A stretch of 32,952 nt of DNA, from the NCBI GenBank assembly GCA_017547205.1, contig JAFYQH010000062.1:1-32952 (forward strand), written 5' to 3'. This document shows positions 536-19,569 of the stretch, one piece after another. A program made the translations under genes and the position numbers. How positions within the stretch are numbered: the stretch's first letter is position 1; each line of letters opens with the position of its first letter. The DNA comes from Bacteroidaceae bacterium. GTDB taxonomy: Bacteria; Bacteroidota; Bacteroidia; Bacteroidales; Bacteroidaceae. Under the pieces are notes generated by a model. The model did no database searches. It was given only the letters and a program-made list of their open reading frames with translations, and was not told the DNA's origin.

Positions 536-1045
536 TTATCTTGCACCCAATGGGAGCACGCGCATCCATACCTCGCTTACCCAACCGGTATCCTCGGTAC
601 CTCCAAGGTTATATTCAATATAAAGAATGTTCGGGTTCTTCTCATTTGTCCTGTACCGTAGGTTCGAGATTGTATTGTTCAGGCTCTTGTCAATGTAATG
701 CCTGTTTATGTATTCCAGATAGGTATTCCCCGATGTTACCTCAATGTCACCCTGCTGGGTAATGAAAGTAACGGTACTTATTGTTGGCTTCTCCTGGTTC
801 TCTTCCTTTATGGGAATGTCCACACTCGCCATCACGCAGTATGTCTTGTCCTCGCGTATGTTCTTGTAAATCTCCTTGCCGATGTAGATAGTACTGCCAT
901 CGGCCTTTACAACCTCCTCGACGTACTGCCATATTCCCAAGAGTGGCTTGATGTCACCTCCCTTTTTATCTTCTTGTGCATTTACGGTAACCAGGCTGCC
1001 GAAAACCATGACAGCTAACAATAGCATAAACTTCTTGGCATTCAT
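536..1045 (-). CDS. Small secreted protein, DUF4488-like
   Basis: The product is 169 aa starting at ATG 1045 (MNAKKFMLLLAV). An N-terminal extension of the frame to 1102 has no signal-peptide character and is not used. Residues 1-24 form a Sec signal peptide (hydrophobic MLLLAVMVFGSLVTV, then NAQ). The mature part has the GIWQYVEE motif near its start, then beta-rich sequence with repeated T/Y/E patterns and VWMRVL at the end. This resembles the lipocalin-like DUF4488 proteins of Bacteroidales, whose function is unknown. The family assignment is from memory of the motif and is moderate. The gene stands alone, divergent from the DUF454 gene. Confidence 0.7.
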   Translation of the reverse strand: MNAKKFMLLLAVMVFGSLVTVNAQEDKKGGDIKPLLGIWQYVEEVVKADGSTIYIGKEIYKNIREDKTYCVMASVDIPIKEENQEKPTISTVTFITQQGDIEVTSGNTYLEYINRHYIDKSLNNTISNLRYRTNEKNPNILYIEYNLGGTEDTGWVSEVWMRVLPLGAR

Positions 1046-1182
1046 AGTCGTAGGATTTGAATGGTTGTTACAAAATTTTACTTTGAGTTCTGCAATGTAC
1101 AAAAATTTTTATAAAAAAACTTTTTTTTGAGAAAAATAGTGGAGCCATAATGTTATTGTGGGTGTGTGAACGATAAAATTAG

Positions 1183-1190
1183 TATCTTCG
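1183..1190 (+). promoter_or_regulatory. Probable -7 box of the ybaN-like gene
   Basis: TATCTTCG matches the Bacteroidetes -7 element TAnnTTTG with one change (T to C). It lies 53 bp upstream of the ATG at 1244. No clear -33 box is seen, so support is partial. Confidence 0.35.
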
Positions 1191-1243
1191 CGGGCGGAAT
1201 GGCACATAGCGGCCATTACCGTCCATCTTGTAGCAAAGTCACA

Positions 1244-1603
1244 ATGAAATATATACTGGCATTTCTTGGTAGTTTATCGCTGGCGCTTGGCATTCTTGGA
1301 ATATTCCTGCCGGTGCTGCCCACGACACCATTCCTGCTGTTGGCTGCGACACTCTATGTGCGTAGTTCGGCAAGGCTCTATGACTGGCTCATGTCGCACA
1401 GGCAACTGGGCCCCTACATAAAGAACTTTAGGGAGAACAAAGCCATCCCGCTAAGGGTGAAGGTTGTATCGGTAAGCCTGGTATGGGCAACACTCCTTTA
1501 TTGCGCACTCTTCGTAGCCTGGGTATGGTGGATGAGGCTTCTGTTCATTGCCATTGCCACATGCGTTACGGTGCATATACTTCACTACAGAACGTTGAAG
1601 TGA
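1244..1603 (+). CDS. ybaN: DUF454 (YbaN-family) inner membrane protein
   Basis: The product is 119 aa from ATG 1244. An upstream in-frame ATG at 1166 would add 26 polar residues and overlap the promoter, so it is rejected. The sequence has a first hydrophobic hairpin containing the family motif GIFLPVLPTTPFLLLA (about residues 14-35). A central polar stretch follows (SSARLYDWLMSHRQLGPYIKNF), which is characteristic of YbaN/DUF454. Two further membrane segments lie at about 75-115 (VVSVSLVWATLLYCALF, LLFIAIATCVTVHIL). It is an integral cytoplasmic-membrane protein of unknown function. It is monocistronic here, facing the convergent msrC-like gene. Confidence 0.85.
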   Translation: MKYILAFLGSLSLALGILGIFLPVLPTTPFLLLAATLYVRSSARLYDWLMSHRQLGPYIKNFRENKAIPLRVKVVSVSLVWATLLYCALFVAWVWWMRLLFIAIATCVTVHILHYRTLK

Positions 1604-1625
1604 AGATAGCGCACAATACCTGTAA

Positions 1626-1650
1626 TCCCGAGCAATGCCGAGGAATCTCG
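1626..1650. repeat. REP-like extragenic element (degenerate copy)
   Basis: The segment reads CCCGAGCAATGCCG followed by AGGAATCTCG. It aligns with the element at 2381-2417 (TTCGAGCGCATGCGAG then AAATCTC). Both share the CGAG...GAGRAATCTC core of a short repeat that is widely scattered in intergenic regions of Bacteroidetes genomes. Confidence 0.5.
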
Positions 1651-1791
1651 AATAGAGTACTGATAACAGAGTGCAGATTACGTAGATGTCTCCGCAGCGG
1701 TGACATGTCTCTCTCTTATCCCGTTATTCACCATAAAACTCCCAGTCCTGTAGTGCAAGAAGGGGTGGTGCGCAGCACCGGGGAAGATTGT

Positions 1792-2265
1792 CTAAATGAT
1801 TTTCTTCACAATCCTCTCCAGCCAGTGGCGGTCGGTCCCGTCGAAGGTAGCAAGGTGTTCGCTGTCGATGTCGAGTACAGCCGTTACATTGCCCCCAGTG
1901 CCGAATACCGGCACCACAATCTCGCTCTTCGATGCACTGCTGCATGCTATGTGTCCTGGGAACTGTTCAACATCGGGTACCACCTGAGTAGTGCGCTCCT
2001 TCCATGCCGTGCCGCACACCCCACGCCCGTATTTTATGCGGCTGCATGCAAGCGGCCCCTGGAACGGGCCAAGCACAAGCTCATCGCCAATTACGCGGTA
2101 GAACCCAGTCCACCAAAAGTGGAAAGTCTCATGAATCATCGCGGCAATATTCGCCATGTTGGCAATAGTGTCGTTCTCGCCCTCTGCGAGCGCGCAAACC
2201 TGCTTGTAAAGCAACTCATATTTCTCATCCTTGCCACCCTGGGCAATGTGCAGTTCCTCGGCCAT
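1792..2265 (-). CDS. msrC: Free methionine-(R)-sulfoxide reductase (fRMsr, GAF domain)
   Basis: The product is 157 aa. It reduces free L-methionine-(R)-sulfoxide to methionine in the cytoplasm, using thioredoxin-type electron donors. The whole protein is one GAF domain with the family signature: FHFWWTGFYRV (about 48-58), LVLGPFQGPLACSRI (63-77), GRGVCGTAW (80-88), QFPGHIACSSASKSEIVVPV (101-120) and AVLDIDS (129-135). The three redox cysteines are present at C74, C84 and C108, matching the known arrangement, so it should be active. It faces the ybaN-like gene convergently. Confidence 0.93.
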   Translation of the reverse strand: MAEELHIAQGGKDEKYELLYKQVCALAEGENDTIANMANIAAMIHETFHFWWTGFYRVIGDELVLGPFQGPLACSRIKYGRGVCGTAWKERTTQVVPDVEQFPGHIACSSASKSEIVVPVFGTGGNVTAVLDIDSEHLATFDGTDRHWLERIVKKII

Positions 2266-2380
2266 AAATAATAATGTTTGTTAGGTGCGAATATCGTGAT
2301 TTTTCTCCACAACAGCGCAACATGCAGCATAAAAACCACCGAAGGTACCAATAATATTGTGTCTCGGGGTTACGCAATTC

Positions 2381-2417
2381 TGTCATTTCGAGCGCATGCG
2401 AGAAATCTCATGTCCCC
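2381..2417. repeat. REP-like extragenic element
   Basis: TGTCATTTCGAGCGCATGCG followed by AGAAATCTCATGTCCCC lies in the 168-bp gap between msrC and the macrodomain-like gene. The GTCATTTCGAG...GAGAAATCTC pattern is a recurrent Bacteroidetes intergenic repeat with a central dyad (ATTTCGAGCG/CGAGAAAT). Confidence 0.6.
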
Positions 2418-2434
2418 GATGTACCAATGAAAAG

Positions 2435-2830
2435 TCAATGCTTTTTCAGTACATCCACAAACCGCCCCGGCAAGTAAATGTTCTCCACGTCGAGAGCAAG
2501 TCGGAACAGCGGTGCCATCTCTTCCACAGCGAATCCTGCAATGCCGCAGCCAATCTCTGTTACAAGAAAGCGCAGTTCGCTGTGCTCGAGCGCAAAGGCT
2601 ATGAACTCATCGACATAAGGAGCAATTGCATCGACTCCGCCATGCATTGTAGGAATGCCATAGCTACGGCCCTGCAGCCCGTTTCCCTGACCCCACACGG
2701 CCCCGAACTGCTCATATGCAAGCAACGCGGCACCCCCGCCATGCATGCCCTCAAGGTTACTGCCAAAAACAAAAATTTCATTCTCTCCAAGCGAGGTAAT
2801 CCATTCAGGTGAAATACGTTCCATAATCAT
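2435..2830 (-). CDS. Macrodomain-like small protein (ADP-ribose-binding fold, putative)
   Basis: The product is 131 aa; ATG 2824 (MERISPEW) is an equally possible start. Visible motifs are EIFVFGSNLEGMHGGGAALLAYEQFGA (about residues 18-44), NGLQGRSYGIPTMHG (50-64) and LRFLVTEIGCGIAGF (86-100). The order of a strand ending in FGSN, a Gly-rich GMHGGGAA loop and a second LVTxIGCGIAG loop resembles macrodomain-type nucleotide-binding loops. Close homologues occur as conserved hypothetical proteins in Bacteroidales. Substrate and function are unknown. The Cas12a-type repeat sits in the gap just upstream of its start, on the opposite strand. Confidence 0.65.
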   Translation of the reverse strand: MIMERISPEWITSLGENEIFVFGSNLEGMHGGGAALLAYEQFGAVWGQGNGLQGRSYGIPTMHGGVDAIAPYVDEFIAFALEHSELRFLVTEIGCGIAGFAVEEMAPLFRLALDVENIYLPGRFVDVLKKH

Positions 2831-2866
2831 TATAATTGTTCAGCCCATTTAGACAAACCATAGTAA

Positions 2867-2902
2867 GTCTATAAGACTAATTAAATTTCTACTGTTGTAG
2901 AT
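2867..2902 (+). CRISPR. Solitary Cas12a-type CRISPR direct repeat
   Basis: The 36-nt segment begins GTCTATAAGACTAATTA and ends with AATTTCTACTGTTGTAGAT (2884-2902). These last 19 nt are identical to the processed crRNA handle of Francisella Cas12a: the TCTAC/GTAGA stem, a TGTT loop and the AAUU 5' pseudoknot strand. Total length (36 nt) and the 5' GTCTA also match type V-A repeats. Only one copy is present, and no cas12a, cas4, cas1 or cas2 gene is in the window. Read as a crRNA, the guide would be the sequence starting at 2903. Confidence 0.85.
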
Positions 2903-2938
2903 TGTCGTATATCGCCGACCGTTTCTTTGCAGTGCTGC

Positions 2939-3529
2939 TTACCCGAAGTCGGACATGTCGACGAGCTTGTTCATTATGGCATAGACGGTGAGCCCGGGGA
3001 TGGAGTTGATACCGAGCTTTTGTGATATGTTCCTGCGGTGGGAGATAACGGTATATATGGATATGTTGAACTCGTCGGCTATCTCTTTGTTGGTCTTTCC
3101 CTTGGCGACAGCGGCGAGGATGTCGCGCTCGCGCGAACTCAGTTCGTTAAGTTCGTTTTTGGGGTTCTGGGCGTTTTGCTCCATGGCGTTCCTGAGCTTC
3201 TGCACTATACGTGGGGCGTTGTCGTAGATGCCTATGCACTCGTCGTACTGGCGCAGGACGCTCTCTTCGTAGCTGCTGTTGGTCAGGGCTACGATGGCGG
3301 CATCGGTTCCGGTGAAGTATGAGCGTATGTCGAGCCTGTCGTTGTAGTCGATTACAGCGGGGTTGATGATGATTATATCGTAGTTGCTGTTGGTTCTTAG
3401 GTAATCGGGGTTTGCGAGTGTCTGCTCAATGACAAAGTCGGGGTGACGCTCAATGATGCTTGCAATGCCTGCAGCCACAATCTCGGATGGCTCAATGAGT
3501 ACAATCCTGTATCTGTTCTCTTTATTCAT
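2939..3529 (-). CDS. LuxR-type regulator with degenerate receiver domain
   Basis: The product is 196 aa from ATG 3529; an in-frame ATG at 3553 would add eight residues. Residues 8-115 have the alternating layout of a response-regulator receiver, but the phospho-acceptor position in YDIIIINPAVI is Asn56 rather than Asp. The usual acidic pair after strand 1 is reduced to Glu (VLIEPSE). Residues 129-190 form a LuxR/GerE helix-turn-helix (ELSSRERDILAAVAKGKTNKEIADEF...TVISHRRNISQKLGI). The start overlaps the end of the hemerythrin gene by 8 nt, so the two are probably translationally coupled. It likely regulates genes in response to the neighbouring diiron protein or iron, independently of phosphorylation (inference). 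Confidence 0.88.
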   Translation of the reverse strand: MNKENRYRIVLIEPSEIVAAGIASIIERHPDFVIEQTLANPDYLRTNSNYDIIIINPAVIDYNDRLDIRSYFTGTDAAIVALTNSSYEESVLRQYDECIGIYDNAPRIVQKLRNAMEQNAQNPKNELNELSSRERDILAAVAKGKTNKEIADEFNISIYTVISHRRNISQKLGINSIPGLTVYAIMNKLVDMSDFG

Positions 3530-4226
3530 GTCTGTTCTCGAGTTTTTCGACAAGTGGAATGAGTAGTCTGTTCTCTATGAGGGAGTGCTTGCTCAGGTCG
3601 CTCTCAATGGTGTATATGTCGGCCAGCAGGCTGTAGCGCAGGGGTGAGGAGTACTCTTCGCCAAGGTACTTGGCTATGATGTTCTTCAGGTCGTTGAGTT
3701 TCTCGCTTATGTTGCTATGATTCTCCTCGAACTGGTGAATACTGTATTTGCCACGGCCGTCGCAACTGTCGGCAAGTAGGCTGTCTATGTAGGGGAAGAC
3801 GGTGTCCTCTTCGTAGCGGAAATGGTTGGTTATCTCGCTGTCGTAGTCGTCGTAGAACTTGTCGATGAGCTTGCGGCTTACTTCGTCGAGTTCCTTGACA
3901 AGGTTGTGTATGCCGTTGTGTATGGCAGGGAAGCATGTCTCTACATAGTAGCGGTGCGATGCGCGCAGGTAGGCTGTGATGCTCTTTATATCGCTTGACA
4001 CGAGGTTGGCTGTCTGTGGGCGGTAGTCGTGGAAGGAGTAGATGTTGCATATCATGAGGAAGAGCTCGGTGGATATGCCGTATCTATTGCATATATCGGC
4101 TACTGTGGCTTCACCGAAGCCAAGTTTTATGCCCAGTCTCTGGAGTATTGACAGCAGGTTGCCGTCACTTGCAAGAAGGTCGGCGACCTTCATTCGCCTT
4201 GTGTATGTTGTTTCCTTGTTGTTCAT
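3522..4226 (-). CDS. Hemerythrin-domain protein (RIC/ScdA-like)
   Basis: The product is 234 aa and cytoplasmic. Residues 10-65 resemble the N-terminal DUF542 region of iron-sulfur-cluster repair proteins (VADLLASDGNLLSILQRLGIKLGFGEATVADICNRYGI read in pieces), but the usual Cys-Cys pair is absent (KLGFG instead of a CCGG-like motif). Residues 80-230 are a hemerythrin HHE bundle with candidate diiron ligands H91, H135-E139, H164 or H170, and H214-E218 (HFRYEED, HSLIENRLLIP). Such proteins bind a diiron centre and respond to O2, NO or iron. It lies 37 bp downstream of feoAB and overlaps the LuxR gene, consistent with an iron-linked sensor/repair role. Confidence 0.88.
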   Translation of the reverse strand: MNNKETTYTRRMKVADLLASDGNLLSILQRLGIKLGFGEATVADICNRYGISTELFLMICNIYSFHDYRPQTANLVSSDIKSITAYLRASHRYYVETCFPAIHNGIHNLVKELDEVSRKLIDKFYDDYDSEITNHFRYEEDTVFPYIDSLLADSCDGRGKYSIHQFEENHSNISEKLNDLKNIIAKYLGEEYSSPLRYSLLADIYTIESDLSKHSLIENRLLIPLVEKLENRHE

Positions 4227-4263
4227 GTGCTTGTTTTGTTTTTCTTTGGTTGTTTGGTATTTG

Positions 4264-6747
4264 TTAAAACATTCCTCCTATGGTGTAGACGGCAAAGCCG
4301 GCAAGCCATGCTACAGCGGTGTTGTAGGCTATGGAGAACGCAGCCCATCGCCAGTTGCCGGTTTCGCTTGCTATGGTGCCTATGGTGGCTATGCATGGGA
4401 AGAACAGGAGTATGAACACGAGGAACGATGCTGCGGAGCGTGGGGTGAAGTCACCCGATGCCTTGAGGTCTTCCTTGATGCTCTCTTCGCTGTCGCTGCT
4501 GTATAGCACTCCCATGGTGCTTACCACAAGTTCCTTGGCGGGTATGCTTGTTATTATGGCTATGCTTGAGCGCCAGTTCTGTCCCAGTGGCTCGAGTACC
4601 GGAGCAACTGCATGCCCTATCATTGCAATGAACGAATCTTCGTTTATGCCGGCCGCATCATCTCTCAGCTCTGTACTCTTTGCTCTTTGCTCTTTGCTCT
4701 GTACTATTTGCTCTGTACTCTTTGCTCTTTGCTCTTTGCTCTGTACTATTTGCTCTGTACTCTTTGCTCTTTGCTCTTTGCTCTCTTCCGGCCTCGGGTA
4801 GTAGCTGAGGAACCATATCACTACGGTCGACAGGAGTATGACCGTGCCTATCTTCTTTATGTATTGTGCGCACTTGTTCCACATGTGGCGCATGGTGGCG
4901 TTGAACGTGGGCCAGCGGTAGGGCGGCAACTCCATGACAAACGGGGTTTCGTCCTTGGGGTACTTGGTGAGCCTGAGCAGTCGCGCGGTGATGATGGCTA
5001 CGAGTATGCCAAGCAGGTAGAGCCCTATGAGCACGAGCGGTGCGTGTCCCGGGAAGAATGCTCCTGCGAAGAGTATCATCACCGGCAGACGTGCGCTGCA
5101 CGACATGAAGGGGGTGACGAGTATGGTTATCATGCGGCTGCTGCGGCTCTCGATAGTGCGTGTGGCCAATATGGCCGGTACGTTGCAGCCGAAGCCCATG
5201 AGCATGGGGATGAACGACTTGCCGTGCAGTCCCATCTTATGCATCATGCGGTCCATTATGAAGGCTGCGCGTGCCATGTAGCCCGAATCCTCCATGAACG
5301 AGATGAAGAGGTAGAGTATGAGTATCTGCGGTATGAACACGGCTACGCTGCCTACACCGCCTATGATGCCGTTGACAACGAGGTCCTGTAGGGCTCCGCC
5401 TGGCAACACTCTTGTAGCGAGGTCACCGAAGAGACCGAACAGGCTTTCGATCCATTCCTGCGGGTATGCGCCCAGCATGAACACGGCACTGAACATTATC
5501 CACATGACCATGATGAACATGGGGAAGCCCAGCCAGCGGTTGGCTACGAGCCTGTCTATGCGGCGGGTCTGTTTCTGTGTGTCCTTGTCGCCTGGGCTGA
5601 ATGTCTCCTGCAGGGCTCCGTTGACGAAGCCGTACTTGGCTCCGCTGATGGCCGTCTCTACATCGACGCCCATCTGGGCCTGTACCTTGCGGGCACAGCC
5701 ATGGGCAATGTGCTTCCAGCGTGGCAGCTCCATGCTCTTGCCAAGCAGTTTGGCCGCTTCCTCGTCACCTTCGAGCAGCTTCAATGCCCAGTAGCGCACG
5801 GGGAACTGCTGCGGCAGGTCCTCGGCCTTGTGCATCTCGGCCGACAGGGGTGCGAGCTGTTCCTCGATGATGTTTCCGTAGTTGATATGGATGTGGCGTA
5901 TGGTGCTGTTTTCGCCTTCGAAGAGCTCTATGACGGTGTCGAGCAACTTGTCGAGCCCGTTGCCGTTCTTGGCTACGGTGGGAATCATGGGAATGCCCAT
6001 CATGGCTCCCAGGTGCTCATAGTCGATGGTGGCTCCGCTGGCAAGCAGCTCGTCGTACATGTTGAGCGCGACGACTGTGCGCAGGTTCATGTCGATGAGC
6101 TCGGTGGTGAGGTAGAGGTTGCGCTCGAGGTTAGACGCCACGACGCTGTTGATGATGATGTCGGGCATTTGCTCGAACAGGTGCTTGCGGACGTATATCT
6201 CCTCGGGGGTGTAGGCGGCGATGGAGTAGGTTCCGGGCAGGTCGGTGATGTTGATGCGGTAGCCTTTGTAGTTGAAGCTGCCTGTCTTGGCATCGACGGT
6301 GACACCGCTGTAGTTGCCTACATGTTCGTTGCCGTTGGAGAGGGCGTTGAATATTGATGTCTTGCCGCTGTTGGGGTTGCCCACGAGGGCTACGTTTATT
6401 ATGTTGTTCCTCTTTGTCTTTATCTTCTTAAGCATGCAGCTGCTGCAACTGTCGCCGCTGCAGTTCTCGCACATTGAGAAGGTGCTGAACGTGGGGGCGG
6501 GGGTTAGCTCCTTGCGCGCCTCTTCCTCGGGCAGTACCTCTATCATGGCGGCCTCGTTGCGGCGCAACAGCACGTCATAGCCCATGACATGGTACTTCAC
6601 GGGGTCGTGCATGGGGGAGTCGAGTACCGACTTTACCTTCTCGCCGCGTATGAAGCCCATCTCCATTATGCGCTTGCGGAATCCGCCGTGCCCCGACAGG
6701 CGCACGATGACCGCAGTCTCGCCGTTCTTGAGTTCCGATAGTTTCAT
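4264..6747 (-). CDS. feoB: Fused ferrous iron transport protein FeoA-FeoB
   Basis: The product is 827 aa and imports Fe2+ across the inner membrane. Residues 1-75 are a FeoA SH3-like domain (MKLSELKNGETAVIVRLSG). A linker with C93, C96, C101 and C104 (CENC then CSSC) follows. The G domain has G1 GNPNSGKT (123-130), G3 DLPG (169-172) and G4 NMYD. From about residue 400 there is the membrane domain with paired Gate segments (GGVGSVAVFIPQILILYLFISF, FGCNVPAILATRTI, IPAKELVVSTMGVLY). Residues about 656-693 are a low-complexity KEQRAKS/TEQIVQS insertion encoded by a heptanucleotide repeat just before the last Gate region; normal FeoB lacks this. It is the first gene of an operon with the hemerythrin and LuxR genes. 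Confidence 0.95.
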   Translation of the reverse strand: MKLSELKNGETAVIVRLSGHGGFRKRIMEMGFIRGEKVKSVLDSPMHDPVKYHVMGYDVLLRRNEAAMIEVLPEEEARKELTPAPTFSTFSMCENCSGDSCSSCMLKKIKTKRNNIINVALVGNPNSGKTSIFNALSNGNEHVGNYSGVTVDAKTGSFNYKGYRINITDLPGTYSIAAYTPEEIYVRKHLFEQMPDIIINSVVASNLERNLYLTTELIDMNLRTVVALNMYDELLASGATIDYEHLGAMMGIPMIPTVAKNGNGLDKLLDTVIELFEGENSTIRHIHINYGNIIEEQLAPLSAEMHKAEDLPQQFPVRYWALKLLEGDEEAAKLLGKSMELPRWKHIAHGCARKVQAQMGVDVETAISGAKYGFVNGALQETFSPGDKDTQKQTRRIDRLVANRWLGFPMFIMVMWIMFSAVFMLGAYPQEWIESLFGLFGDLATRVLPGGALQDLVVNGIIGGVGSVAVFIPQILILYLFISFMEDSGYMARAAFIMDRMMHKMGLHGKSFIPMLMGFGCNVPAILATRTIESRSSRMITILVTPFMSCSARLPVMILFAGAFFPGHAPLVLIGLYLLGILVAIITARLLRLTKYPKDETPFVMELPPYRWPTFNATMRHMWNKCAQYIKKIGTVILLSTVVIWFLSYYPRPEESKEQRAKSTEQIVQSKEQRAKSTEQIVQSKEQRAKSTELRDDAAGINEDSFIAMIGHAVAPVLEPLGQNWRSSIAIITSIPAKELVVSTMGVLYSSDSEESIKEDLKASGDFTPRSAASFLVFILLFFPCIATIGTIASETGNWRWAAFSIAYNTAVAWLAGFAVYTIGGMF
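4669..4780. repeat. Heptanucleotide tandem repeat inside feoAB
   Basis: There are sixteen uninterrupted 7-bp units on the + strand: nine CTCTTTG, five CTCTGTA and two CTATTTG. They are arranged in a higher-order 42-bp period of six units. A degenerate unit follows at 4781-4787. Because 7 is not a multiple of 3, the coding strand reads successive units in all three frames, producing KEQRAKS-type peptide repeats. Confidence 0.95.
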
Positions 6748-13783: not shown

Positions 13784-16700
13784 ATGAAAAGGAAATTTTA
13801 CAACGGATTGCTGTTGGTAGCTATGCTATTCATGGCAGCAGGTTCTTTTGTCTCTTGTAAGGACTATGACGAAGATGCGTATGCAGATTTGCGAGGACAA
13901 CTTGTAGAGCAGAATGCTAACCTGGTAGAGATTATCGAGGCTCAGAAGAAAGCTTTGGAAACTTTGTTGGATGCAAAACTGGGAGAATCCGAGGAGAACA
14001 ATCGTCTTGCTCTAGAGGCGGAAATTAAAAATCTGAGAGAAGAAATCCAAAAATGGACGCAACTGGCTTTGGAAGGCTATGTTACAACAAAGGAGTTTGA
14101 GGCACATGTTGACAAATGCAATGACCAGATAGACATCTACAATAATTTTATTGCAGAATTTGGTACTTATAAAGACGGTATACAAAATCAGTTTGGAGAT
14201 GTATATACAGCAATAGAAGAGGCGAACTCAGCTTTGGAGAGTGGTCTGATGATTGAGTTGCTGCTTGTTCAGGAAAAACTTAACAGCACGATCTCTTCGT
14301 CAATCGCCACACTTGAAAGCAATTTTGCTGCAAAACTCAGTGACGCCATTGCTGCTAATAAGGCTGAAATTGAGGCTGGGTATAATAGTGCCATAGCTGC
14401 AAGCCAAAGTGTTATAGCTGGAGAAATTGAAGCACTTCAGAGTAAACTTAATGAGGCTATTGCTGGTGGAAATAAAGATCTTGAAAATACTCTTAGAGGT
14501 GAAATCCAAGCACTTGAAGACAAACTCGCTGCTCGTATCTCTGAGCTGGAGTCATGGAAGGCTTCTGCAGAGACTCGTCTGAGCTCTTTGGAGAGCAGCG
14601 TGGCAAATAATGAGAAGGCCATTGCTAAATTGCAGGACGATCTTGGTGGCTTGGCTGAGAGCGTTGGCAATATCCAAGATCTTTTGAACAAGACTGTTCA
14701 TGATGTTGTTAAAGCTCAGGCACTGGCAGAGCGTGATTCTATCAGAATCGATGCTCTTGAGAATAGATATGCACTTCTTGAGTCAATGAATAATGAAGAG
14801 CACGATGCCCTTGAAGCAAGAATTGACAGTATCTGCAATGTTCTCAAGGATCAGCAGGGAATAAATGAGAATCTTGATGCAAAAATTGACAGTGTATATA
14901 ATGTCTTGCTCGCCGCTAACCAGAAAATGGGTGATAGGATTGATAGCATCAATAATAATTTGACCATAATCAAGAAAGAGGTGAGCAAAGCTCTTGAATT
15001 GGCTAACGAGAACTTGGAGAAGGCAAACGAGTATACCGATAAGCGTATTGAATATGTAATGGGCAATATTGCAGGTATCCATACGACTTTGGACGACCTT
15101 AAGGCTTCGTACATGGAGGCAGATGAGGCTTTGCAGGCTCAGATTGATGAGCTTAAGTCTGGCTTGGCTGACCTTGAGGAGCGCGTTAAGAAGAACGAGG
15201 AGAATATTGATGCACTGCTCGGCTTGAACGAGAAAGTCAACGATATCGATGAGTCTTTGAAGCAGTTCATCACCGGTATCATTCTGCAGAGAGCCGAGAA
15301 CCCTGTATTCGGTTCATTCGCATTCCCTGCAAACATCCAGACAAATGTTCTGATGGCTTACTATGGTTATGCGGGCAGCTATGGTGTACAGTTCCCGACA
15401 TATTATCCACGTTACTATGTAAGAGCAGCAGAGGCTCTTTCTGTAAAGGATATCGAAATGCTCGGTATCACTCCTGAAACTTTGGTTGAGGACGGTGATG
15501 CTATCATCGGTAATGCAGGTAAGGTATATGTAACTGTGAACCCCTCTAACGTTAACTTCGAGGGTCAGGTGCTTCCTATCGTCAACAGTATTGAAGAGGA
15601 GTCTGGCGTTAAGTTGTCTCCGCTCAAGTATTCAGACAAGAAGCTCACATTCGGTGCTACAAGATCGGCTGTAAATGGCTTGTATGAGGCTGACGCTACT
15701 CTGGATGCTAATGGTCTTGAAAGTGTAAAGATGAGATTCGACCTCAATGTCGGTGATGTTAAGGAGACTATCAAGGATGTTATCAATCCTACAGACGGTG
15801 TTAATGTAAGCCGCCTTGCAAGTACTATGGTAAATGTATTGAGCCAGTTCAACCAGACACTCGATGCCAACGCATTGAAGGCAAGCTGGACCGACTCACT
15901 CGGTGTGTCACGCAGCGTATATTCACAGTATAACCTCGCTACAACAGCAATCAAGCCGTTGTCTTATGCGTTCATGAATGATGTGAACATCTCTTCATTC
16001 CCAGGATTCGATAGAATAAGAAATCTTTCAGGCCGTCTTATCGACAAGATTTCAAACAGAATACAACTTGTTATTCCTAACTTCCCGATAATCGACCTGC
16101 ACGCAGATAAGATCACCGAACTGCACTTCGATTCAATCAAGATCAATACAAGCGATATCAACCTTGACCTTACTGTAAGATACAAGGATACAATCATGAC
16201 TTCAGTTGAGGTTTCAATCGATCATTTTGTTGATATCGATATTGAAAAGCTTATCGAAGTCGGTTCAATGGATATCTATGTTGATGTTCCTGTAAAGGGT
16301 GATGTAAAGGACGATCATGAAAATGTAATCGGTAAGTTCGAAACTTTAATCGAGGACTACAAGATTACAATTCCGGCTCAGGATGTTATGGTAAGTATAC
16401 AGGAAAAAGTTCCTTTCAAGTGGACAGGTATGGTTCCTGTTGAGGTTCCCGTTGACATTGAGATTCCTGTAGATATGGAAGAGTTCAAGAAACTCCTTGC
16501 CGAGGTTGATGCAATGGAGGATGATATAAACGGTCTCTTGGCTGGTCAGCAGGATAAGGTTAACAAGATTATCAAGACTGTTAACGATTACCTTGAGAGA
16601 CTCGGTGACTTGACAGACCTTGAAATGAAGTTGGCAGATATCGACAACAGAATCGATGCTCAGTTCGACATTATCAAGGACAAGATCATCAAGTTCCTTG

Positions 16701-17140
16701 ACAAGACAGAGGATGTGCTTGTAACTGGTGTTAACTCAATCAACAAGGTTCTTCAGCCTGTAATGCTTGTGAAGACAACAGATGGTTTCCATAAGCTCAG
16801 CCAGACAATCTATACCCCGACAGTAATGACTTCAGGTGATGTTCAGTTTATACCTACATCATATAATGCCGAGATTGTTGCTCCTGCTTACAAGAAGCTT
16901 GTCGGTGTTACCAACGTATTCTCTATGGACCGCAGCAAGCATGCACAGGCTGGCGATAGCGACTGTCTCAATGTTTTGAAAGCTGCCAATGCAAAGGCTG
17001 GTGTTGCTGAGGTTATCAACGGTGATACAAATGTTGTTGCATTCTCTGCAAAGAAGGGTTACATATACGAGGTAACTTACACAAGTGTTGACTACAGCGG
17101 TCTTGTAGTTGCTAGAAAGTACTACGTAACCGTAAAGTAA
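13784..17140 (+). CDS. Large coiled-coil surface lipoprotein
   Basis: The product is 1118 aa. The signal peptide ends in a lipobox at C26 (AAGSFVSC, then KDYDEDAYAD); the acidic residues after Cys fit Bacteroidetes lipoprotein export to the cell surface. Residues about 35-510 are almost continuous heptad-type coiled coil rich in Ala, Glu, Leu, Lys and Asn, with repeated Asp-Ser-(Val/Ile) units near residues 345-400 (ARIDSICNVL, AKIDSVYNVL, DRIDSINNNL). Residues about 515-1118 are a beta-rich domain with a further short coiled coil near 905-990. I recognise no enzyme motif. Together with the downstream OmpA protein it may form a stalk or tether in the envelope (inference). Confidence 0.85.
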   Translation: MKRKFYNGLLLVAMLFMAAGSFVSCKDYDEDAYADLRGQLVEQNANLVEIIEAQKKALETLLDAKLGESEENNRLALEAEIKNLREEIQKWTQLALEGYVTTKEFEAHVDKCNDQIDIYNNFIAEFGTYKDGIQNQFGDVYTAIEEANSALESGLMIELLLVQEKLNSTISSSIATLESNFAAKLSDAIAANKAEIEAGYNSAIAASQSVIAGEIEALQSKLNEAIAGGNKDLENTLRGEIQALEDKLAARISELESWKASAETRLSSLESSVANNEKAIAKLQDDLGGLAESVGNIQDLLNKTVHDVVKAQALAERDSIRIDALENRYALLESMNNEEHDALEARIDSICNVLKDQQGINENLDAKIDSVYNVLLAANQKMGDRIDSINNNLTIIKKEVSKALELANENLEKANEYTDKRIEYVMGNIAGIHTTLDDLKASYMEADEALQAQIDELKSGLADLEERVKKNEENIDALLGLNEKVNDIDESLKQFITGIILQRAENPVFGSFAFPANIQTNVLMAYYGYAGSYGVQFPTYYPRYYVRAAEALSVKDIEMLGITPETLVEDGDAIIGNAGKVYVTVNPSNVNFEGQVLPIVNSIEEESGVKLSPLKYSDKKLTFGATRSAVNGLYEADATLDANGLESVKMRFDLNVGDVKETIKDVINPTDGVNVSRLASTMVNVLSQFNQTLDANALKASWTDSLGVSRSVYSQYNLATTAIKPLSYAFMNDVNISSFPGFDRIRNLSGRLIDKISNRIQLVIPNFPIIDLHADKITELHFDSIKINTSDINLDLTVRYKDTIMTSVEVSIDHFVDIDIEKLIEVGSMDIYVDVPVKGDVKDDHENVIGKFETLIEDYKITIPAQDVMVSIQEKVPFKWTGMVPVEVPVDIEIPVDMEEFKKLLAEVDAMEDDINGLLAGQQDKVNKIIKTVNDYLERLGDLTDLEMKLADIDNRIDAQFDIIKDKIIKFLDKTEDVLVTGVNSINKVLQPVMLVKTTDGFHKLSQTIYTPTVMTSGDVQFIPTSYNAEIVAPAYKKLVGVTNVFSMDRSKHAQAGDSDCLNVLKAANAKAGVAEVINGDTNVVAFSAKKGYIYEVTYTSVDYSGLVVARKYYVTVK

Positions 17141-17219: not shown

Positions 17220-18377
17220 ATGAAATTCAATAAAACATTATTGGCAGCTCTGTTGATGATGGGATTGGGTTCTGCTGCTGTAGCTCAGGAAAAGAGTGAA
17301 ACGTACGAGAACGTGTTCAATCCACATTGGTATGTACAGGCTCAGCCATTAGGTCTACAGTATACTTTGGGTGAAAGCTCATTCGGCGACCTGCTGTCAT
17401 ATAACTTCCAGTTCGCGGGAGGTTATAACTTCAACGAATTGTTTGGTGCCCGTTTCTCTATCAATGCTTACCAGAGCAAGGCTGGTTGGGGTATCAATGG
17501 TGTAAACAAGAAGTGGAAGTGGAACTACATTGCGCCTACCGTAGATGCTACATTCGACCTCTCTAACCTTATACTCGGTTATAATCCCGAGCGTCCTTAC
17601 AGTTTCGGTGCATTTGCAGGTCTGGGCCTGAACTTTGCATGGGGCAATGACGATGCCGAGGATGTAAAGGCTCAGTTGAGTTCTGAGGCTGTTTATGGTC
17701 ATGACCAGAACCTGCGTTACTTGTGGGATGGCTCAAAGACAAGAATCACAGCACGTGCAGGTATTACTGCCGATTATCGCATCGACCCTAACTGGAGTGT
17801 TGGTATTGAGCTTCAGGCAAATACTTTGAGCGACAAGTACAACTCAAAGAAGGCCGGTAATTCAGACTGGTACTTCAATGCACTTGTAGGTGTCAAGTAT
17901 GTATTCGGCAATAGCAACAAGAAGGTTGCTAAGGTTGTTGAGGCTCCAGTACGCATTCAGGAGAAGGTTGTAGAGAAGGTTGTAGAGAAGGTAGTCGAGA
18001 AGAAGATTTATGTTGAGACTACAATTCACGAGATTAACCGTGCAATCTACTTCAGAACTGCCGGTAGAACAACAATTCCTACTTCTGAGATGGTTAAGGT
18101 CAAGGAGGTTGCTGATTTCATGAAGGATCATCCCGATGCTGTGGTTACTCTTTGTGGTTATGCCGACAAGGGTACAGGTAACCCGGCTGTCAATGCAAGA
18201 TTGTCTGAGAAACGCGTGAAGGCTGTTGCTGATGCTTTGATAAACAAGTATGGTATTGCTGAATCACGTGTAACAATTGACCATAAGGGTGATACAGTAC
18301 AGCCTCTTGAGGGTACTGATAACCGTGTGACAATTGCAGTTGCCAAGTCAAAGAAGGTTGTTGAAGTAACAAAGTAA
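17220..18377 (+). CDS. OmpA-family outer membrane protein
   Basis: The product is 385 aa. The signal peptide is MKFNKTLLAALLMMGLGSAAVA, cleaved before QEK. Residues about 30-230 are an eight-strand-type beta-barrel (alternating aromatic strands, for example NFQFAGGYNFNELFGARFSI and WYFNALVGVKYVFG). Residues 240-262 are a Val-Glu-Lys linker repeat (EKVVEKVVEKVVEKK). Residues 265-385 are the OmpA peptidoglycan-binding domain (IYFRTAGRT, VVTLCGYADKGTG, NARLSEKRVKAVADALI, DNRVTIAVAK). It anchors the outer membrane to peptidoglycan. It lies 79 bp after the coiled-coil lipoprotein gene and probably shares its transcript. Confidence 0.92.
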   Translation: MKFNKTLLAALLMMGLGSAAVAQEKSETYENVFNPHWYVQAQPLGLQYTLGESSFGDLLSYNFQFAGGYNFNELFGARFSINAYQSKAGWGINGVNKKWKWNYIAPTVDATFDLSNLILGYNPERPYSFGAFAGLGLNFAWGNDDAEDVKAQLSSEAVYGHDQNLRYLWDGSKTRITARAGITADYRIDPNWSVGIELQANTLSDKYNSKKAGNSDWYFNALVGVKYVFGNSNKKVAKVVEAPVRIQEKVVEKVVEKVVEKKIYVETTIHEINRAIYFRTAGRTTIPTSEMVKVKEVADFMKDHPDAVVTLCGYADKGTGNPAVNARLSEKRVKAVADALINKYGIAESRVTIDHKGDTVQPLEGTDNRVTIAVAKSKKVVEVTK

Positions 18378-18394
18378 TAAATAATTCCTAATTG

Positions 18395-18446
18395 AACTCA
18401 GCCTTGTTTGTATGGATTTCTATATGAATGGGCTGAGTTTTTTTTA
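18395..18446 (+). terminator. Terminator after ompA, touching the next start codon
   Basis: AACTCAGCC (18395-18403) pairs with GGCTGAGTT (18431-18439), and an 8-nt T tract extends the run to about 18445. The loop is long (27 nt). The next gene's ATG is at 18451, which leaves no room for a separate promoter behind the terminator. Confidence 0.65.
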
Positions 18447-18450
18447 TAGT

Positions 18451-19569
18451 ATGAAAAAGGTTATATTATTTTTATTTGCAATTTTTACACTCGGTAGCGT
18501 ATTTGCCCAGCTTAATGGGAACGGCTATTATAGGGTGCAGAACAAGAAAACATTACGCTATATAAGAGTAATTGACAACAGGGGTAGTGTTAATCTTGAG
18601 TCTACAACCGCAGATCTTGCTGCTCTTCAAACAATAAAAGGTTTTGAGAATGTGGTTTCTGATCCTTCATCAATCATTTATATAAAAAATGCTGGTGACG
18701 GTTACGATTTCCTTGCCCAAGGTACAAGTTCATACAGCATAATAGGGTATTATGTAAAACTTTATAATAGGGGTGCTACATACGAGGCATATGCACAGCA
18801 TGCAGGTCTTACAAAGTATTTGTGTGACGAGGATTTTGATGGTCCTGATGGTGTAGTAACTACTAATGCGAGAGGAGATATCAGTAATTGGTATATCAAA
18901 CCTGTAAATCAGACTGACGGTCAGTATTTCGGCTTCAAGCCGACCGTAACCGTAGGTAATGAGTATTATACTACAATATATGCAGCGTTCCCTTTTACAC
19001 TTCCTGAGGGAATGACGGCTTACTATATTACAAAGGTTGATACAAAGGATAACAAGACTATAGCTGTTTGGGAGGAGGTTAAGGACGGTAAAGTTCCCGC
19101 TGCCACAGCTGTGTATGTAAAATGTAAGTCCTCGGACTATGCTGATAACAAGATTGTTATTGGAGAGAATGGAGTGTCTTCTTTGCCGGGCAATCTTATG
19201 AAGGGTGTGTATTTCAACAATGGTAGCAAGAAGCACAATAACCAGTTGGCATATGACCCTAATACCATGAGGGTTCTCGGTGTGGGTGCTGATGGTAAAT
19301 TGGCCTTCGTTACGGCTGGTACTGATGTTAAATTTATCCCTGCAAATACTGCATATATCAATGTTCCGGCAGGCTCTTCAAAAGAATTGGAGCTGGTGTC
19401 CAAAACCGATTATGATATGGGCATTGATGATCTTCCGTTTGAGGAAAATGCTGTTTTGTCCAAGATCTATAATGTGCATGGCATTGAACTTGAGCAGTAC
19501 CAGCCTGGTGTGAATATTGTGGTATTCGAGGATGGAACGGTAAAGAAAGTTCTAGTTGGAAAGGAATAA
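18451..19569 (+). CDS. Secreted protein of unknown function with C-terminal sorting-like tail
   Basis: The product is 372 aa from ATG 18451, chosen because MKKVILFLFAIFTLGSVFAQ is a clean signal peptide. An in-frame ATG at 18412 lies within the terminator loop. After the signal comes NGNGYYRVQNKKTLRYIRV, a ricin-like or 'YYRVQN' opening seen in many Bacteroidales secreted proteins, then beta-rich sequence. The C-terminus (LSKIYNVHGIELEQYQPGVNIVVFEDGTVKKVLVGKE read in pieces) resembles the YD-x-G-R...G-(I/V)YI...DG-x-x-KK-V tails typical of secreted Bacteroidales proteins. Function unknown; it is the third gene of the envelope cluster. Confidence 0.8.
   Translation: MKKVILFLFAIFTLGSVFAQLNGNGYYRVQNKKTLRYIRVIDNRGSVNLESTTADLAALQTIKGFENVVSDPSSIIYIKNAGDGYDFLAQGTSSYSIIGYYVKLYNRGATYEAYAQHAGLTKYLCDEDFDGPDGVVTTNARGDISNWYIKPVNQTDGQYFGFKPTVTVGNEYYTTIYAAFPFTLPEGMTAYYITKVDTKDNKTIAVWEEVKDGKVPAATAVYVKCKSSDYADNKIVIGENGVSSLPGNLMKGVYFNNGSKKHNNQLAYDPNTMRVLGVGADGKLAFVTAGTDVKFIPANTAYINVPAGSSKELELVSKTDYDMGIDDLPFEENAVLSKIYNVHGIELEQYQPGVNIVVFEDGTVKKVLVGKE

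Follow-up and report, generated by a model that had tools for sequence, protein, structure and literature searches.

A single, complete type V-A (Cas12a) CRISPR repeat, standing alone on the plus strand in the gap between two minus-strand genes, raises the question of whether it is the relic of an array or, as a first-pass annotation of the same DNA also considered, a single-repeat RNA that works in trans with a Cas12a encoded elsewhere. The window, by which we mean the whole 32,952-nt stretch that was analysed, is the entire contig C56 of a draft genome (G000) of 2.23 Mb in 83 contigs, which is 83% complete.

The repeat lies at 2867-2902 (+), reads GTCTATAAGACTAATTAAATTTCTACTGTTGTAGAT, exactly as first written down, and comprises a GTCT..AGAC 5′ hairpin and the 19-nt crRNA handle. 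It follows the V-A plan in being 36 nt long, its 5′ half belonging to the GNCTA type and its 3′ end being a AATTTCTAC..GTAGAT handle; in V-A repeats of the host family the handle is preceded by a 5′ half of 17 nt, which in most cases includes a short hairpin, and 15 of the 18 family array loci read start with GNCTA (two start with GTCAA and one with GGTGT). The closest family repeat, judged by eye, is GTCTATAAGACTATTATAATTTCTACTATTGTAGAT in genome G347. At one position the window repeat has a G where all 18 family array loci have an A, and this G form is also present at a contig end in G055, a family genome with Cas12a. The handle occurs once in the window at up to three mismatches versus none in 100 shuffles, and once in the 2,227,869 bases of the genome at up to two, such that a chance match can be rejected; the initial claims of a negligible chance for the 19-nt match and of a lone repeat both stand, the latter now for the window and for the 2.2-Mb draft genome. 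A degenerate match search for a second copy in window 1000-5500 gave 19-20/36 at best, within the range of shuffles, so that where an array is taken to have at least two repeats at array spacing, G000 has a single copy. Decay of the repeat was not detectable, as judged without the species’ own array repeat, and this weighs against its being a fragment. Taking the survival of the full repeat as a sign of function is a weak argument, because a recent insertion would be intact too.

Immediately 3′ of the repeat, a stretch of 26 nt (2903-2928, +) matches at 24 of 26 nt a protospacer elsewhere in the same genome (G000:C16:37411-37436), the mismatches falling at nt 1 (T vs C) and nt 23; a TTTC precedes the protospacer in the register expected for a Cas12a PAM, in keeping with TTTV. 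Searching the gap against its own genome aligned 2904-2928 with G000:C16:37412-37436 at 24/25 (spacer nt 2-26; E 6.8e-5), and under a uniform-base model about 4e-8 matches of at least 24/26 with a TTTV PAM are expected in G000; a 15-nt match of the gap on C60 (E 0.84) was taken as chance. The length of 26 nt fits the 26-33 nt seen in 197 intervals of the family arrays read. The C16 protospacer sits in an integrated prophage: along the contig, host genes (glycogen synthase, carB and an amidotransferase-domain gene) are followed by a tyrosine integrase and, further on, by a head maturation protease and a tape measure gene. This prophage also encodes a reverse transcriptase (phrog_1423, RVT_1; L188 1582-2940 (-), equivalent to G000:C16:20581-21939), which is perhaps part of a diversity-generating element. 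A scan of IMG/VR with 21 nt of the protospacer returned one viral contig (L191), whose alignment with the prophage covers 8.3 kb at 76% and whose protospacer and PAM are identical to those of the prophage; a viral search that included spacer nt 1 gave no matches, the L191 match appearing once that nucleotide was left out. On account of the 24/26 match to the genome’s own prophage, the in-register PAM, and the identical viral protospacer and PAM, we regard the 26 nt as a true CRISPR spacer directed at an existing phage lineage, and one that is self-targeting in G000.

The gap that holds the repeat spans 108 nt (2831-2938), as first described, with the repeat on the opposite strand to both adjoining ORFs; the description of these neighbours as ‘housekeeping-like’ fared less well. 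Directly to the left of the insert lies the gene for a 131-aa A1S_2505-family protein (2435-2830, -; NF049995, E 1e-41; phrog_2072, E 2.3e-33), a family annotated as ‘phage non-structural protein’, and to the right that for a LuxR/GerE-type regulator (2939-3553, -; PF00196, E 2.5e-18), beyond which come a hemerythrin-domain gene and then FeoB. The next ORF in the other direction (1792-2265, -), which we take to encode a GAF-like protein, completes a LuxR-A1S-GAF order common to the genome G004. A match to the regulator is found in 41 of 44 genus genomes and one to the A1S protein in eight of the 44, the nearest being that of G004 at 80%. In 18 of the 30 regulator loci read (the window’s included) a start resembling that of the GAF-like gene lies 9-35 nt past the end of the regulator alignment. 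The gene order of the window, FeoB-RIC-LuxR-A1S-GAF-DUF454, recurs in G004 (LuxR and A1S placed by tblastn, the other genes by eye), where the LuxR-A1S gap is 11 nt and holds no repeat, and for this reason the 108-nt gap would reflect an insertion of ~95 nt, placed approximately at 2846-2938 by comparison with the 11-nt gap. The extra ~95 nt look like an insertion, the direction, as against loss in G004, being judged from the short gaps of relatives only.

Conservation of the repeat and its flank in related strains, which the first-pass annotation had put forward as a check, was not seen: the orthologous G004 locus is without the repeat, and a 34-nt core (up to three mismatches) occurs in no other of the 399 family genomes searched. 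A conserved functional RNA at this locus is not supported, given the absence of the core from the other sampled genomes and the 11-nt gap in G004. Searches of 50,697 phage and 72,556 plasmid records gave no match to window 2821-2960, and a scan of IMG/VR for the first 23 nt of the repeat came back empty.

The left flank adjoining the repeat (2846-2866, +) matches at 20 of 21 nt a stretch of G000:C82 (7948-7968, the same as L185 1501-1521; E 0.011) in the gap between an ndk and an M23 peptidase gene (names assigned by eye), and this match ends exactly at the repeat. The flank was rejected as an ordinary spacer, there being no TTTV PAM beside the C82 match at any plausible spacer length and no viral match of the flank with either base at its variable site. 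The matched stretch was not seen in the ndk-M23 gap of the 29 relatives listed. The match is borderline; it may be coincidental, or the flank may be what is left of a spacer with an unusual origin, and this second match to the own genome counts against the fragment reading given below.

No match to Cas12a was found by a TIGR04330 profile search of the whole of G000, at its 83% completeness, which extends the earlier statement that the 33 kb encode none. The same profile matched five of 11 chosen genomes, and we consider the search to work because these include all four of the genomes given that have multi-copy arrays. Likewise, the 16 of 78 window ORFs (at least 80 aa) that were scanned against one or more family libraries gave no Cas match. 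The suggested search of the rest of the genome therefore came back empty for both cas12a and further repeats, and that of related genomes found Cas12a in two of the 44 of the genus; the sequence missing from G000 could still contain both cas12a and a main array.

As for expression, 13 of the 15 V-A leaders that could be tested in the host family have a TAnnTTTG box, 34-38 nt ahead of the handle (the G055 contig-end copy counted as one; three arrays with short flanks, and L139 at a contig end, were left out), and no such box occurs in window 2500-2900 (+). The sole near-match in 2780-2880 is TATAATTG (2831-2838, +), with one mismatch and 53 nt before the handle. A sigma-70-type promoter-like site, GTGAAA-16-TATAAT (10/12), lies at 2809-2836 (+), 30 nt before the repeat and overlapping the start codon of the A1S gene; three sites of this type in 2300-3600, versus a shuffle mean of 1.4 (sd 1.2), is near chance, and promoters of the sigma-70 type are not the usual type in Bacteroidota, the phylum to which the TAnnTTTG promoters and the gene content point. 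The site would leave room for some plus-strand transcription of the repeat. Neither a terminator-like site nor an Rfam match (up to E 1) was found in 2300-3600, and we therefore reject the repeat as part of a terminator, the circumstance named at the outset as speaking against a CRISPR-related reading. The plus-strand fold of the gap is near that of shuffles (z -0.9; z -1.5 for a 69-nt version); the minus-strand fold is better than shuffles (z -2.8, 1/200 shuffles), an excess that we attribute to the palindromic repeat and its flank.

Bringing these findings together, we consider it likely that the one intact repeat and the spacer that follows it were left stranded from a V-A array, either lost or foreign, and are probably silent; the fragment perhaps also holds part of the preceding spacer, and it would preserve the memory of a phage with a relative now in the chromosome. 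We propose that ~95 nt became inserted into a cluster of minus-strand genes, with the LuxR-type gene on one side and the A1S_2505-type gene on the other. Cas12a trims its transcript just 5′ of the handle, and a plus-strand transcript of the unit, given Cas12a, could be trimmed into a crRNA against the resident prophage, and hence be self-targeting. An active Cas12a should attack the chromosome, and so the unbroken prophage target leads us to expect that unit or enzyme is absent, inactive or inhibited; we infer that the repeat-spacer unit is silent at present. The array origin is suggested by the sequence of a full-length repeat with its spacer, no second repeat remaining. Of the two readings between which the first-pass annotation was divided, the array relic is thus the better supported, by the spacer, the intact target, the want of box and terminator and the lack of conservation, and the trans-acting RNA is not clearly favoured.

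The closest likeness of a stranded fragment is to cas-less orphan or degenerate V-A arrays, with which the window unit shares an intact repeat, a spacer with a phage target and PAM, and no effector found, but from which it differs in having one repeat, where orphan arrays usually retain at least two, in having no leader box, and in lying as ~95 nt within a gene cluster. On this reading, one Cas12a repeat and a real anti-phage spacer that targets the genome’s own prophage can survive as a stray chromosomal segment, with array and Cas12a unseen, and a literature search found no title or abstract reporting a lone V-A repeat locus with a self-targeting spacer. Such units are easily mistaken for RNA anti-CRISPRs or regulatory crRNAs, and three checks served to separate them here: whether the 5′ half of the repeat is present, whether a phage sequence with a PAM matches the 26-30 nt that follow, and whether a leader-type box is in place.

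The exact handle is present in 22 of the 399 family genomes, 17 of them with at least five copies and five with one. Among these five, the handle of G105 belongs to a composite unit (see below) and that of G055 to a contig end, and G000, G093 and G357 have full-length lone repeats and no Cas12a match. The lone repeat of G357 (L180 8998-9033, 9303-9338) has a decayed second copy at 29/36 versus a shuffle maximum of 24; that of G093 (reverse complement of L178, 10402-10437, 10467-10502) has a second copy at 21/36, the 95% level of shuffles, at a distance of 65 nt, which equals the array period. Judged from these second copies, both lone repeats are likely to be array relics. A single handle in G033 (two mismatches) was dropped, as by eye it falls within an apparent coding stretch.

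Could the unit instead be a functional crRNA gene of minimal size, its RNA taken up in trans by a Cas12a from the unassembled part of the genome and serving to check the resident prophage or superinfecting relatives? We think this unlikely. Its handle and 26-nt guide are complete and V-A guides need no downstream repeat, the target bears a PAM, Cas12a exists in the genus, G000 is 83% complete, and the sigma-70-type promoter-like site lies upstream; against this, the leader-type box is missing from its usual place and there is no terminator, the prophage protospacer is unbroken beside a TTTC that an active Cas12a should cut, and only 2/44 genus genomes have Cas12a. That the host has kept a freestanding crRNA gene, split from its array and paired with a Cas12a from an unassembled locus or an incoming element, so as to police one prophage lineage, seems to us quite unlikely; were it true, this would be a crRNA gene conditioning cells on the arrival of Cas12a.

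It is distinctly improbable, in our estimation, that a mobile element brought in a viral-type mini-array against a competing phage and left it in the chromosome. Mini-arrays with spacers against related viruses are known, according to the accessible portions of two reviews (PMC11656645, PMC8616872), and the window unit has in common with them one spacer that matches a virus and the need for a Cas enzyme from another locus. However, it is chromosomal, with one repeat only and no mobile element seen around it; the insert contains no phage gene, 2821-2960 is without a match in the phage and plasmid records searched, and IMG/VR lacks the first 23 nt of the repeat.

A mobile element’s RNA anti-CRISPR (Racr), in which a solitary repeat unit titrates Cas12a, is a very unlikely description of the locus. 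RacrVA1-3 are reported to inhibit a V-A system in the accessible part of a Nature 2023 paper (PMC10651486), and the window unit resembles such V-A Racrs in that its V-A repeat is solitary and lacks cas genes; viral contigs often carry solitary V-A handles (79 IMG/VR stretches), and the adjacent A1S gene is of a phage-associated family, with relatives in 449 of the 50,697 phage records, 447 of them below 60% identity. That gene, however, occurs in G004 without the repeat, so that gene and repeat are not linked, and in place of virus or plasmid carriage we find a chromosomal gene order common to G004 and no phage or plasmid match. A comparison with 62 unique handle copies from the 79 viral stretches, in which the full 5′ half is mostly missing, also speaks against a Racr: the 5′-half signature is rare among them (six copies; background 5%) and is present in the window, and the TAnnTTTG box occurs in 16 (background 5%) and a terminator in 15 (background 2%), the window having neither. 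The window unit has a full 36-nt repeat where the phage copies mostly have the handle only, together with a phage-matching spacer that a Racr does not need.

A CreR-like regulatory crRNA, which pairs partially with a promoter so that Cas12a represses the gene but does not cut it, is likewise a crRNA-like unit outside an array, has precedent in V-A systems (in the accessible part of a review, PMC12737573) and could draw on a prophage target that precedes a series of three minus-strand ORFs by ~120 nt, in a stretch taken as non-coding (two short mechanical ORFs overlap it), but it is extremely unlikely here given near-full complementarity (24/26), no cas operon found, and PAM plus 10-nt seed matches (up to one mismatch) at 13 places in the genome (including the C16 protospacer) versus 12 for a reversed control, which is no excess.

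The viral handles are of interest in their own right. In nine of the 62 copies (background 3%) the handle closely precedes a ribosome-binding site and ORF (L050, L071, L084, L090, L097, L098, L101, L105 and L118), as if binding or cutting of the leader by Cas12a could control phage mRNA. One solitary handle on the minus strand of a host genome (L015 1501-1519; G039:C158:11256-11274) directly follows a TATATTTG box and is followed, by eye, by a hairpin and T-run; on this arrangement it is a good Racr candidate. Its host genome, G039, also has V-A arrays and a Cas12a fragment.

Four IMG/VR contigs and one family genome locus carry a composite element, made up of an I-C-like repeat end, GTGGATTGAAAC, 14-16 nt, the V-A handle, and then hairpins and a T-run (L056 2633-2677; L069 5677-5721; L088 3517-3563; L187 9354-9398 (-); and, in the family genome, L127 1475-1519; those of L127 and L187 were read by eye). 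L072 and L107, identical in the region shown, have a first part that is shortened, slightly different, and separated from the handle by only 2 nt. L056, L069 and L088 have a TAnnTTTG box in the 80 nt that precede the handle, TATATTTG is visible in L187, and none was seen in L127. It is possible that the composites are single transcripts that mimic two CRISPR types, making them candidate dual RNA anti-CRISPRs; the labels I-C and Racr are presumptive here, being given by resemblance. This I-C/V-A form was found neither in a literature search nor in the accessible part of the Racr paper (PMC10651486), and these phage elements may matter more than the element in the window.

Elsewhere in the window, 13784-17140 (+) encodes a protein of 1118 aa whose SMC and Druantia DruC-like matches are weak, after which come two 385-aa ORFs without a PADLOC match (17220-18377 and 18412-19569, +); the three genes possibly form an operon.
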